Below, in pieces: positions 20,893 through 24,977 of a DNA stretch of 64,000 nt. Under the pieces are notes generated by a model. It was given only the letters and a program-made list of their open reading frames with translations. It searched no databases and was not told where the DNA came from. A program made the position numbers and the translations under genes. Source of the DNA: Mariprofundus sp. EBB-1 (lineage in GTDB: Bacteria > Pseudomonadota > Zetaproteobacteria > Mariprofundales > Mariprofundaceae). Numbering within the stretch: position 1 is the stretch's first letter; every line of letters starts with the position of its first letter. The stretch covers positions 62,001 to 126,000 of the forward strand of contig NZ_RCFQ01000001.1 of the NCBI RefSeq assembly GCF_003665155.1, in the 5' to 3' direction.

Positions 20893-21030
20893 TCTGGCTG
20901 GATGTTTTTATGATTGAGTAACATCGAACAGTTACCATACATTGTTGTTCCCCGCTAATCCGCGGTGAACCTTTTTTATTGCGTATGATTGTCTGGGTTA
21001 GTAGTGGCACCTTGTTTGCTATTGCGCGTT

Positions 21031-21921
21031 ATGTTTCGTTTCTCTGCATGGTTGCAGAAAAAAACTGATATCATCAAAAGATCGCTGGCGCTTCGGGTTG
21101 CATTGTTACTGATGCTTTCATATGTGGCGGCGATGCTTGTGTTGGTTTTGCTTATACCTCACTGGAGTCAAATCGCCGTGGTGTTGCTGGTGCTGTTGTT
21201 GATGATATTGACGCAGTGGATGTTGCTCAGTCACATGGTTGTTACACCGATTCAGCATTTACAACGATTAGCACGGAAAAATGCGGTGCCTGATGCATTG
21301 ACCGATGCACGTTTAGCCGCACGCGGTGATGAAATTGGTAGTTTGCGATTGACTATGCTTGCCACCGATCAAGAGGTGCAATCTCAGCAGCAGGCAATGC
21401 AAACGTTGACTGAGAAAATGGATAAAGATCGCCGTCATGATCCATTGACCAAGTTACATAATCGACGTCATCTATATCTGGAAGGCCCAGCCCAGTTTGA
21501 AATGGCGCATCGTCTCAATTATCCCGTATCGGTGATGATGATTGATCTGGACCTGTTTAAACATATTAATGATACATATGGACATAGCGCCGGTGATAAG
21601 GTGCTTGTCGATGTTGCTCTGGCGCTTGGTGAACATAGTCGGGTGTATGATATATTGATCCGTTTTGGCGGCGAAGAGTTTACATTGATTTTGCTCAACT
21701 GTAACCAACAACAATCCATGCAGATTGCTGAACGCATTCGTGAAGATATTGAAATGCTGAACGTCTCGTTTGATCAAATGATAATCCCTGTAACATGCAG
21801 TATTGGTGTTAGCAGTGCTACTCAGATGGATATGGAACAGATGATTCCGTTGGCCGATGAAGCAGTATATAAAGCCAAATCAGCAGGCCGAAATTGTGTG
21901 CGCCATGTTGATGATCGTTGA
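21031..21921 (+). CDS. Membrane diguanylate cyclase (GGDEF)
   Basis: A 296-residue protein with two N-terminal membrane helices (about LALRVALLLMLSYVAAMLVL and a second hydrophobic stretch ending at WMLLSHMV), a HAMP-like or coiled linker, and a C-terminal GGDEF domain. The active site is RFGGEEF, and the inhibitory I-site RVYD sits five residues upstream, so it should make c-di-GMP under product feedback. There is no periplasmic sensing domain to speak of. The start is uncertain: TTG 20989 is also open and neither start has a clear ribosome-binding site. Confidence 0.88.
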   Translation: MFRFSAWLQKKTDIIKRSLALRVALLLMLSYVAAMLVLVLLIPHWSQIAVVLLVLLLMILTQWMLLSHMVVTPIQHLQRLARKNAVPDALTDARLAARGDEIGSLRLTMLATDQEVQSQQQAMQTLTEKMDKDRRHDPLTKLHNRRHLYLEGPAQFEMAHRLNYPVSVMMIDLDLFKHINDTYGHSAGDKVLVDVALALGEHSRVYDILIRFGGEEFTLILLNCNQQQSMQIAERIREDIEMLNVSFDQMIIPVTCSIGVSSATQMDMEQMIPLADEAVYKAKSAGRNCVRHVDDR

Positions 21922-22077: not shown

Positions 22078-22479
22078 CTATGCAGTAACGCACGATAGCT
22101 GCATAGATGCAATATGTTCAGCCAGAGCTTTCATCCTGACAGGTTTCGTTATCACCATAGTTTGGTCTATTTCTATCTGTAGAAGGTTCACATCATTCGG
22201 ATGGCCGGTAAGAATAATGGCAGGGGTCTTGATCCCTAGCGTGCGAATATGATCTAATAATTCAGCCCCATTCATTTCTGGCATATGAAGGTCTGTAATG
22301 ATCAAATCAATTTGCTCGTGGGCGGTTTTAAGGTAGTGAATGGCATCGCTAGCTGATCTGAACGAAACAACAGCATGGCCAATCAAATTGACCATTTTGT
22401 GGTGTACTTTTAAGACCTCTTTATCATCGTCAATGAGTATGATTTCGAGTGATTCTTTCGCGCTTGTTTCATTATGCAT
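22078..22479 (-). CDS. Single-domain response regulator (REC)
   Basis: A 133-residue receiver domain with no output domain. The acidic pair (IDDD), phosphoacceptor Asp63 (ITDLHMPEMNG), Thr (LTGHP) and Lys (TKPVRM) are all present. The ATG at 22479 has GGGGAG about eight bases upstream; longer starts are less likely. It is divergent from the LuxR-hydrolase gene, with about 107 bp between starts, so the two may share control. CheY-like partner interaction is expected; no histidine kinase is in the window. Confidence 0.9.
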   Translation of the reverse strand: MHNETSAKESLEIILIDDDKEVLKVHHKMVNLIGHAVVSFRSASDAIHYLKTAHEQIDLIITDLHMPEMNGAELLDHIRTLGIKTPAIILTGHPNDVNLLQIEIDQTMVITKPVRMKALAEHIASMQLSCVTA

Positions 22480-22538
22480 ATTACACACTCCCCACATCAC
22501 ATGGGACAATTATCGTTAATGAAAAAAAAGGCGCATCA

Positions 22539-22548
22539 CCCATATGGG
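22539..22548. promoter_or_regulatory. Palindrome in the divergent REC / LuxR-hydrolase promoter region
   Basis: CCCATATGGG is a perfect 10-bp palindrome, and the wider TACCCCATATGGGTG (minus strand) resembles paired NarL/LuxR-type half sites. It lies about 40 bp before the LuxR-type gene start and 60 bp before the REC start, a natural place for an autoregulatory operator. Evidence is positional. Confidence 0.4.
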
Positions 22549-22586
22549 GTATGCGGAGCAGATATTTTTGTTTTAGGGTACGATGT

Positions 22587-24329
22587 ATGGAAAAAGAGAA
22601 AGATTTTAACCCTGTTGATTATTCAAAGCTGATAGCTTTGATTTATGACACAGCAGAGGACACTTCTCTGTGGCCAGAGTTGTTGGAACAGATATGGGAT
22701 TATGCCAATAGTGATTCATCTCATTTCCATGATAAAGATGCGATCTTTGAACCACATGTTGCCCGCGCAGTAGCGCTCAATCAGCGTATTTCAAAATTGA
22801 AAGCTAAAAACTATACAAGCAATCAGATTCTTAACCGTCTGCCAATCGGTGTGCTTGTGGTTAATGAGGCGTTGAAAATATTGGCTGTAAATGAGCGGGC
22901 ATCCATGGTGTTAAATCATGGAAAGGTGATATCCAACAAGTATGGTTTTATTGAATCTCATTCAATAAAAAACACCCAACAGCTACAAAAATTAGTCGCA
23001 ACTTATGCATCGTCCAGTTCCTTTGAGAGAGGCTCATCACTTTTTCTGGAAGGAAGTGATGGTGCCCAAATATCCCTATGGGTTACAGCATCGGATAATC
23101 AGGCAACAGAAATTACTGGAAGCTCAGATGTCGCCATTATTTATATTGCCTCACCATTGATTCAGCCCGAGTTTGATGTGCAGAATATTCAGGATCAGTT
23201 TCACCTCACCCTTGCCGAAGCAAAATTGGTGAAAGCTTTGGCCAATGGTTGCCATAATCTCAATGATGCAGCGATAAAGCTTGGTGTGAGTATTCATACT
23301 GTGCGCACGCAGATCAAACGTACCTTTGAAAAAACAGATACGACCAGCCAAATGGAGTTGGTCAAGAAGGTGCTTACCAGTCCCTCTGCCATCTTTGGTG
23401 AAACACAACTTCCACAATCTTTGATCAGCCATGCAGATGCTGAGAAAGATGTGCTCTTTAAACCTTATCATACGATTCGCTTGATGGATGGACGAGATTT
23501 GTCTTACGAAGAGTATGGTGATCCAGAGGGGATACCGGTATTGCTGTTCCACGCGGCATTTGGTTCAAGGTTGCAATATCCAGCAGATGATACGACAGCG
23601 CATCGCTTAGGATTGCGGTTTATTGTGCCAGATCGACCTGGTCATGGTTATTCCTCCATGCAGAAAGATCGAAAGCTGCTGGACTGGCCGAATGATGTCA
23701 TAGCGCTGGCTGATCAATTGAACCTGGAGACGTTTTCTGTCATGGGTTATTCAGGCGGAGGCAGCTATGCACTGGCTTGTGCTTACAAAATCCCTGAACG
23801 TATTGATCAGGCAGTGCTTGTTTCATTTGGAAGTCCGAATATTAGCTTTTATGAGAATAGTTTAAGGTGGAGTTATTCTTTTCTGAGAATGGCACAAAGT
23901 TCCCCTAAATTATTCTCACAATTTGTGAAAATATTAGCTAGTAGCTTTCAGAAAGACCCTATCAAGGCCTTAGAGAGGCGTTTTAGTCAAATGGCTCCAG
24001 TAGATATGGCCTGTATAGAAAATGATCCTGCAAATAGAGAACAATACGCATTATCTCTGAATGAATCGTTACGACAGGGGGGCGAAGGCGTTGCACAGGA
24101 TATGATGACGATCATGGACTGGGATTTCACACCCAAGAACGTTTCCATGCCCATTCGATTCTGGCATGGCGTGGAGGATCAACAGTTTCCATTGCGTGCA
24201 GCCAAACAACTGGTTGAAGAGCTACCCGACTGTGAAGCAACCTTTGTTCCGAAAGCCGGGTCAATGCTGATTATTCAACATTGGGATGAAATTCTTATCG
24301 ATCTGGCTGGACGGTTAAGTATCAGATAG
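22587..24329 (+). CDS. LuxR-type regulator fused to an alpha/beta hydrolase domain
   Basis: A 580-residue protein. Residues about 80-190 are PAS-like; residues 206-264 are a LuxR/NarL-type helix-turn-helix (LTLAEAKLVKALANG, LGVSIHTVRTQIKRTF); residues about 295-580 are an alpha/beta hydrolase fold. The nucleophile Ser389 (MGYSGGG) and acid Asp531 (WHGVEDQQF) are present, but the position of the catalytic His in the usual AGH motif is Ser559 (PKAGSML). The enzyme domain may therefore be a ligand sensor. The start is ATG 22587 with AGGG eight bases upstream; longer frames overlap the divergent gene. Confidence 0.87.
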   Translation: MEKEKDFNPVDYSKLIALIYDTAEDTSLWPELLEQIWDYANSDSSHFHDKDAIFEPHVARAVALNQRISKLKAKNYTSNQILNRLPIGVLVVNEALKILAVNERASMVLNHGKVISNKYGFIESHSIKNTQQLQKLVATYASSSSFERGSSLFLEGSDGAQISLWVTASDNQATEITGSSDVAIIYIASPLIQPEFDVQNIQDQFHLTLAEAKLVKALANGCHNLNDAAIKLGVSIHTVRTQIKRTFEKTDTTSQMELVKKVLTSPSAIFGETQLPQSLISHADAEKDVLFKPYHTIRLMDGRDLSYEEYGDPEGIPVLLFHAAFGSRLQYPADDTTAHRLGLRFIVPDRPGHGYSSMQKDRKLLDWPNDVIALADQLNLETFSVMGYSGGGSYALACAYKIPERIDQAVLVSFGSPNISFYENSLRWSYSFLRMAQSSPKLFSQFVKILASSFQKDPIKALERRFSQMAPVDMACIENDPANREQYALSLNESLRQGGEGVAQDMMTIMDWDFTPKNVSMPIRFWHGVEDQQFPLRAAKQLVEELPDCEATFVPKAGSMLIIQHWDEILIDLAGRLSIR

Positions 24330-24362: not shown

Positions 24363-24977
24363 TTAAAAGTTATAACTTATCGATCCAACAATGCCCCACA
24401 CGCGCGCTTTGGATGTGCTTCCAGTTTTTACGTCGGTCCAGTATTGCACCCATTCCGCACCTGCGTTTAAACGTTCTGCAAATGTGTATGCTGCTCCTGC
24501 GCCATAGCTGAGGCCGCTGGTAGTCCCGCTAGTACCTTTAATGCCAGGTACAGAGAATGTGCCTTTTACCTTGATGGTAGTGCCGCCAACTAATCCGTAG
24601 AGGTGAACGTTCTGAGCCACTTCGTAGCGAAGTCTGGTCAGGTATGAAGCAAAGTAGCTTGCTTTCATGGAATAGTTGAAGCTGACAGGGCTTGGGAACG
24701 TGCCCAGTGCGGTAGTGATTGGCGTTCCTGCTGAATAGGAAGAGGTGCCGGTTCCTGTACCGCCAATACGCAATTCAGCGGCAATAAAATGATTAAAATT
24801 CACACCGAATTTTACATATTCACCAACAACCGTGTTCTTCTGGGTTACACTGGGTGTTTTTAGTTCCAGGCCGAATATGCCGACACCAAAACCGGCGTAT
24901 GGATCAAGGTCTTGTGCTTGAACTGCAGTGCTGGTGGATAAATAGATTGCAACAGATGCAATAAAACGTGTTTTCAT
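24363..24977 (-). CDS. Outer-membrane beta-barrel protein
   Basis: A 204-residue protein with a signal peptide (ending AVQAQD) and alternating strand patterns typical of an eight-stranded OmpA/OmpW-like barrel: YAGFGVGIFGLEL, YVKFGVNFNHFIAAELRIGG, SYGAGAAYTFAERLNAGAEW. It ends in aromatic-rich SISYNF with a terminal Phe, the BAM recognition signal. The precise family and function are unclear. It converges with the LuxR-hydrolase gene and lies upstream of nothing obviously related. Confidence 0.82.
   Translation of the reverse strand: MKTRFIASVAIYLSTSTAVQAQDLDPYAGFGVGIFGLELKTPSVTQKNTVVGEYVKFGVNFNHFIAAELRIGGTGTGTSSYSAGTPITTALGTFPSPVSFNYSMKASYFASYLTRLRYEVAQNVHLYGLVGGTTIKVKGTFSVPGIKGTSGTTSGLSYGAGAAYTFAERLNAGAEWVQYWTDVKTGSTSKARVWGIVGSISYNF

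Follow-up and report, generated by a model that had tools for sequence, protein, structure and literature searches.

A 64,000-nucleotide stretch of Mariprofundus sp. EBB-1 DNA (the window) encodes a protein in which a LuxR-type regulator is joined to an alpha/beta-hydrolase domain, and this raises the question of whether the hydrolase part is still an enzyme or has become the sensory part of the regulator. Both primer sites specific for Zetaproteobacteria (primers from PMC7466744) occur without mismatch in the 16S gene of the genome, which makes a zetaproteobacterial host most likely. The open reading frame is genuine (Table 1), and a Pfam scan of its product matched Abhydrolase_1 at residues 317 to 561 with an E value of 1.4e-13. 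The PAS and GerE matches are weak in this protein alone, with a GerE (PF00196) score of 13 of 23.5 bits, below the cut-off, and the relatives back both domains. We assigned the helix-turn-helix (HTH) to the GerE type through alignment with relatives that match GerE and through HTH positions L207, E211, A229, T238, and K249, which are invariant in the relatives' alignment. Pfam and the relatives thus confirm the domain order given in the initial annotation, with a PAS-like region and an HTH ahead of a full alpha/beta-hydrolase domain. The scan found no autoinducer-binding domain before the HTH of the fusion protein, a place taken by the PAS-like region, so the protein does not belong to the quorum-sensing LuxR group.

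Table 1. Features of the fusion gene and its surroundings in the window
Feature	Coordinates	Strand	Basis or remark
Diguanylate cyclase (GGDEF) gene, just upstream of the receiver/fusion pair	20989-21921		
Divergent neighbor: stand-alone response-regulator receiver protein (PF00072), possible target	22078-22509	-	Pfam
24-bp dyad CGCATCACCCATATGGGGTATGCG, 10 of 12 pairs, candidate operator in the 77-bp divergent gap	22532-22555	.	Shuffle test
PAS-like/LuxR-HTH/alpha/beta pseudo-hydrolase fusion gene (putative)	22587-24329	+	580 amino acids plus stop; full-length relatives exist
N-terminal helical region, residues 11-73	22617-22805	+	L15, Y20, W29, H57, and R60 conserved among relatives; low-confidence full-length model
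PAS-like region, residues about 79-190	22821-23156	+	PAS_GdpP E = 0.032 here; PAS_8 E = 1.5e-4 in same-genome paralogue L002
LuxR/GerE-type HTH, residues about 203-262	23193-23372	+	GerE E = 0.08 here; 12 of 18 aligned relatives match at E <= 0.01
Alpha/beta-hydrolase domain, residues 295-575	23469-24311	+	Pfam, domain model, and PDB match
H322, oxyanion-loop HG motif (HA here)	23550-23552	+	H in 37/37 stand-alone and 94/121 fused
Ser389, nucleophile position, kept	23751-23753	+	Sequence, relatives, and domain model
Asp531, acid position, kept	24177-24179	+	Sequence, relatives, and domain model
Ser559 (TCA) in the catalytic-His position	24261-24263	+	Sequence, relatives, domain model, and codon
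His565, rejected replacement triad His	24279-24281	+	Relatives' alignment
Convergent downstream neighbor: outer-membrane beta-barrel protein (PF13505)	24363-24977	-	Pfam

In the hydrolase domain, the positions of the Ser-Asp/Glu-His triad are held by Ser389 (in GYSGG), Asp531 (in HGVED), and Ser559 (in PKAGSML), exactly the residue numbers that the initial annotation had given. The codon of Ser559 is at least two base changes away from every His codon, so one sequencing error cannot account for this residue. In triad-intact relatives, the catalytic His aligns with Ser559 and a second His often aligns with H565, as in GHYLLFSHW of the same-genome paralogue and GHLSLLQHQ of L016. All 37 stand-alone enzymes have His at position 559 and differ from one another at position 565, and the closest relative, L032 (the sister, with 58% identity across the whole domain), has Ala at 559 and Ser at 565. 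We therefore rejected H565 as the replacement His, since a His there coexists with the triad His in relatives whose triad is complete, and since the sister carries Ser and the enzymes carry various residues at that position. H322 of the oxyanion loop and H527 (WHG) occur in triad-intact relatives too. Because no other His could be assigned, the triad of the fusion protein is incomplete.

A hydrolase-domain model, built from three sequences, has a mean pLDDT of 72, a pTM of 0.76, and an alpha/beta-hydrolase fold; its top PDB match is 9wlv, with a TM score of 0.85, and from the model and this match together we identified the eight-stranded sheet and nucleophile elbow of the fold. Model residue S98 (S389) lies right behind a strand, at the elbow, D240 (D531) lies behind the next-to-last strand, and S268 (S559) lies in the loop behind the last strand, which is the canonical place of the His. 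The loss of the triad His claimed in the initial annotation, which had named structure prediction as a check, therefore holds in both the relatives and the domain model: S389, D531, and S559 occupy the three triad places, and no other His fills the triad. The lid region of the domain model is low in confidence, and the full-length AlphaFold model (pLDDT of 48) is too poor to use or to reveal an allosteric route.

With profile searches, 22 of 78 genomes from the same order yielded relatives, and LuxR-hydrolase fusions came to light across Pseudomonadota, some of them on named plasmids of Ruegeria, Aliiroseovarius, Martelella, Paracoccus, and Pseudosulfitobacter. A single-protein search of the genome contigs returned only one stand-alone hydrolase. 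On viral contigs, neither the alignment A2 profile nor the single fusion protein as the query found a relative. After removal of sequences more than 90% identical, the Ser-Asp-His triad was intact in all 37 stand-alone hydrolases, which come largely from two families, versus 14 of the 117 LuxR fusions with a C terminus present. The Ser nucleophile was kept in only 27 of 121 fusions. The losses take several forms among the fused sequences in the tree set: Ser is lost and His kept in 21 with Asp and 4 without it, His is lost with Ser and Asp kept in 12, the fusion protein among them, Ser and His are both lost with Asp kept in 48, and all three residues are lost in 17. The replacements at the His place are clade specific rather than random, with Gln in 39 nonredundant sequences, Asn in one three-member zetaproteobacterial clade, and Phe in another clade. 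The idea that Ser is fixed at 559 across the fusions was thus not borne out, and we rejected it; position 559 is Ala in the sister and Asn, Phe, or Gln in other clades, and often it is the Ser nucleophile that is lost instead, for example in WP_011536845 of the cultured Ruegeria sp. TM1040. Judged from these sequences, predicted catalytic loss, rather than Ser at 559, is what recurs in LuxR-hydrolase fusions.

On a large tree computed without the three triad columns, in which deep branches are weakly supported, the minimum numbers of state changes were 12 for Ser, 10 for Asp, and 15 for His. A tree of Zetaproteobacteria with stand-alone outgroups gave minima of 3, 3, and 5, respectively, and one His-to-Phe fusion (L012) lies within a fully supported four-member clade whose other three members are intact. 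The fusion state itself changed just about twice on the tree, so the comparison of fused with stand-alone proteins amounts to few independent contrasts, and too few independent pairs are available to relate fusion to triad loss by a paired sign test. The same genome also carries a second fusion copy (G000:C18; L002 and L070), which has 27% identity and a full triad, and this paralogue is an ideal natural control for the triad-broken fusion.

For pairs of broken-triad fusions, dN/dS in the hydrolase domain was about 0.03 to 0.18, and for a triad-intact fused pair it was 0.08; in the pair containing the window fusion, the synonymous sites were saturated. Long uninterrupted frames are found in nearly all fusion members. 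These ratios indicate that domains of relatives predicted to be catalytically broken are kept under purifying selection, and such selection, together with recurrent triad loss, fits a hydrolase fold that may have been reused as a sensor.

Individual loci also vary in architecture and setting. L041 (G012:C3) and L087 to L089 have two tandem LuxR-type HTH segments ahead of the hydrolase. A second fusion copy, at L066 (13586 to 15393; G074:C16), is divided between two overlapping frames and has the look of a broken gene. At L250 (4001 to 5821; IMGVR_UViG_3300025522_000004), a PAS-LuxR-hydrolase fusion gene lies a few bases behind a Mu-like virion morphogenesis gene (PF05069), which is itself preceded by Mu_F and Portal_Mu genes, and this fusion regulator appears to be phage cargo.

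We also looked at the surroundings of the fusion genes. The score of the dyad in the divergent gap was equaled in 7 of 300 mononucleotide shuffles, which is only mildly significant. A genome-wide search for further copies of this candidate operator found one exact site, at its own locus, and sites with three mismatches that form no convincing pattern. L056, L062, and L071 (G014, G094, and G009, respectively) make up the whole His-to-Asn clade, and in each of them a Phenol_MetA_deg-type gene on the same strand abuts the fusion gene's 3' end or overlaps it; PF13557 was confirmed for L062 and L071, and the L056 gene was placed through a shared BLAST cluster. This Phenol_MetA_deg family gene is probably an outer-membrane channel gene, and channel genes adjoining three fusions hint at hydrophobic or aromatic ligands. 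Across the relatives' loci, we found no neighborhood conservation beyond the Phenol_MetA_deg linkage.

We favor, with moderate confidence, the reading that the fusion protein is a one-component regulator whose HTH is controlled by a pseudo-hydrolase pocket that detects a ligand or partner. The C-terminal domain would be a pseudoenzyme that has kept the fold, the nucleophile Ser, and the acid Asp and has lost the general-base His, and with that His missing it should not turn over esters. The evidence for this reading lies in the S-D-S positions, the lack of a substitute His, the difference in intact triads between fusions and stand-alone hydrolases, the repeated losses with their clade-specific replacements, the low dN/dS in relatives, the precedent of GID1 described below, and the probable channel genes beside three fusions. 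Against it weigh the 14 fusions with a full triad, the modest significance of the palindrome, and the small number of independent fusion contrasts. Because triad loss is usual in more than 100 fusion relatives, the old enzyme pocket is probably now a small-molecule sensor; a protein partner is a possible signal instead. Binding in the former active-site pocket would cause a lid or domain movement that may be passed to the adjacent LuxR-type HTH, perhaps via the PAS-like region, and would alter DNA binding. The likely first targets would be the fusion gene itself and the divergent receiver gene, through the palindrome between them.

The closest working analogy is the plant gibberellin receptor GID1, a convergent case to which the fusion protein does not belong. 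GID1 is described as a descendant of hormone-sensitive lipases, from an esterase that lost the active-site His, and its Ser and Asp contact the hormone (PMC3531792). The likeness is a hydrolase fold with His lost and with Ser and Asp kept, as in the S-D-S positions here and S-D-A in the sister. In contrast to the fusion protein, GID1 works through DELLA and SCF and has no DNA-binding domain. The closest bacterial system, although a distant one to which the fusion protein does not belong, is RsbQ with its PAS partner. RsbQ and the PAS protein RsbP make up a stress-sensing module of Bacillus and relatives, in which the hydrolase is separate from the PAS protein and has a conserved and required triad; the outputs described for modules of this type are a phosphatase, a histidine kinase, and a diguanylate cyclase, with no mention of a LuxR output (PMC3183031). 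Both systems have an alpha/beta hydrolase that acts with a PAS domain on a signaling output, but that module consists of two genes with a conserved triad, whereas here a single polypeptide has a broken one.

The strigolactone and karrikin receptors D14/DAD2 and KAI2 have kept the triad, and hydrolysis is tied to signaling (PMC3531792). These are alpha/beta-hydrolase receptors with a ligand-induced conformational change and are a plausible analogue of the 14 intact fusions, which by this analogy may be enzyme-receptors of the D14/KAI2 sort. With LuxR-family one-component regulators, the fusion protein shares a GerE-type HTH and a sensory region upstream of it; it differs in having the HTH in the middle of the protein, an added C-terminal hydrolase, and no autoinducer-binding domain in the Pfam scan. 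Stand-alone hydrolases of the same subfamily (such as 9wlv, L016, and L100) have the same fold and motifs, at about 26 to 40% identity, but lack the regulator part and have Ser-Asp-His in all cases examined.

Three other explanations have to be weighed against the pseudoenzyme sensor. The hydrolase domain could be a protein-interaction or dimerization module; a partner protein would then be the signal, or the domain would do no more than shape the dimer. One form of this would be a hydrolase that docks, in the manner of RsbQ, onto the PAS region of the same chain. Neuroligins and NDRG are triad-less hydrolase-fold examples of interaction modules. RsbQ directly contacts the PAS domain of RsbP (PMC3183031), one chain here carries both a PAS-like region and a hydrolase, and the triad residues have been replaced in many different ways among the fusions, all of which would suit such a module. 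A pure scaffold, however, need not retain Ser389, Asp531, H322, and pocket motifs, which are enzyme-like in both the fusion protein and the sister, and we consider this explanation unlikely.

Still less probable is that the protein remains an enzyme, such as a slow esterase, lactonase, or acyltransferase, in which Ser389 works with another base or by substrate-assisted catalysis and turnover is needed for regulation, as it is for D14/KAI2 or RsbQ. D14-type receptors hydrolyze their hormone (PMC3531792) and RsbQ requires its triad (PMC3183031), Ser389 and Asp531 are retained here, and 14 fusions are intact; however, no reachable His replaces residue 559, the variability of H565 speaks against its use, and most fusions have lost the Ser as well. 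The presence of a full triad in those 14 fusions, the same-genome paralogue included, means that for some of the class catalysis may still be relevant, and they suggest a continuum from enzyme to receptor. We regard it as very improbable that the hydrolase domain is ballast in decay or that the whole gene is a pseudogene: the many ways in which catalytic residues have been lost and the split gene in one relative genome (L066) would agree with decay, but nearly all members have long intact frames, the dead domains have low dN/dS, and the hydrolase domain is similar to that of the sister over its whole length.

In the open-access literature, we found no published account of the LuxR-hydrolase fusion class or its catalytic decay, and term searches of two LuxR surveys turned up no alpha/beta-hydrolase fusion. 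Database annotations of the fusions mix alpha/beta hydrolase and LuxR C-terminal regulator, and the former label, attached to several fusions, is probably wrong as to function. To our knowledge, plant hormone receptors supply most of the known cases of hydrolases converted to receptors, and few intermediates are among them. We give about even weight to the broader reading that these fusions are a widespread class of bacterial one-component regulators without prior description, in which hydrolases have repeatedly turned into noncatalytic receptors coupled to a LuxR HTH. The family would then be a prokaryotic counterpart of GID1 that still shows its enzymatic relatives, its intact intermediates, and its dead receptors side by side. 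Within this one fusion family, triads range from intact through half-broken to fully broken across many lineages, and the adjacent DNA-binding output would offer an easy readout, so that the order and reversibility of the hydrolase-to-receptor conversion would become testable. The same reading predicts that many small-molecule signals are still to be found in Zetaproteobacteria, Roseobacter-type Alphaproteobacteria, and other Pseudomonadota.
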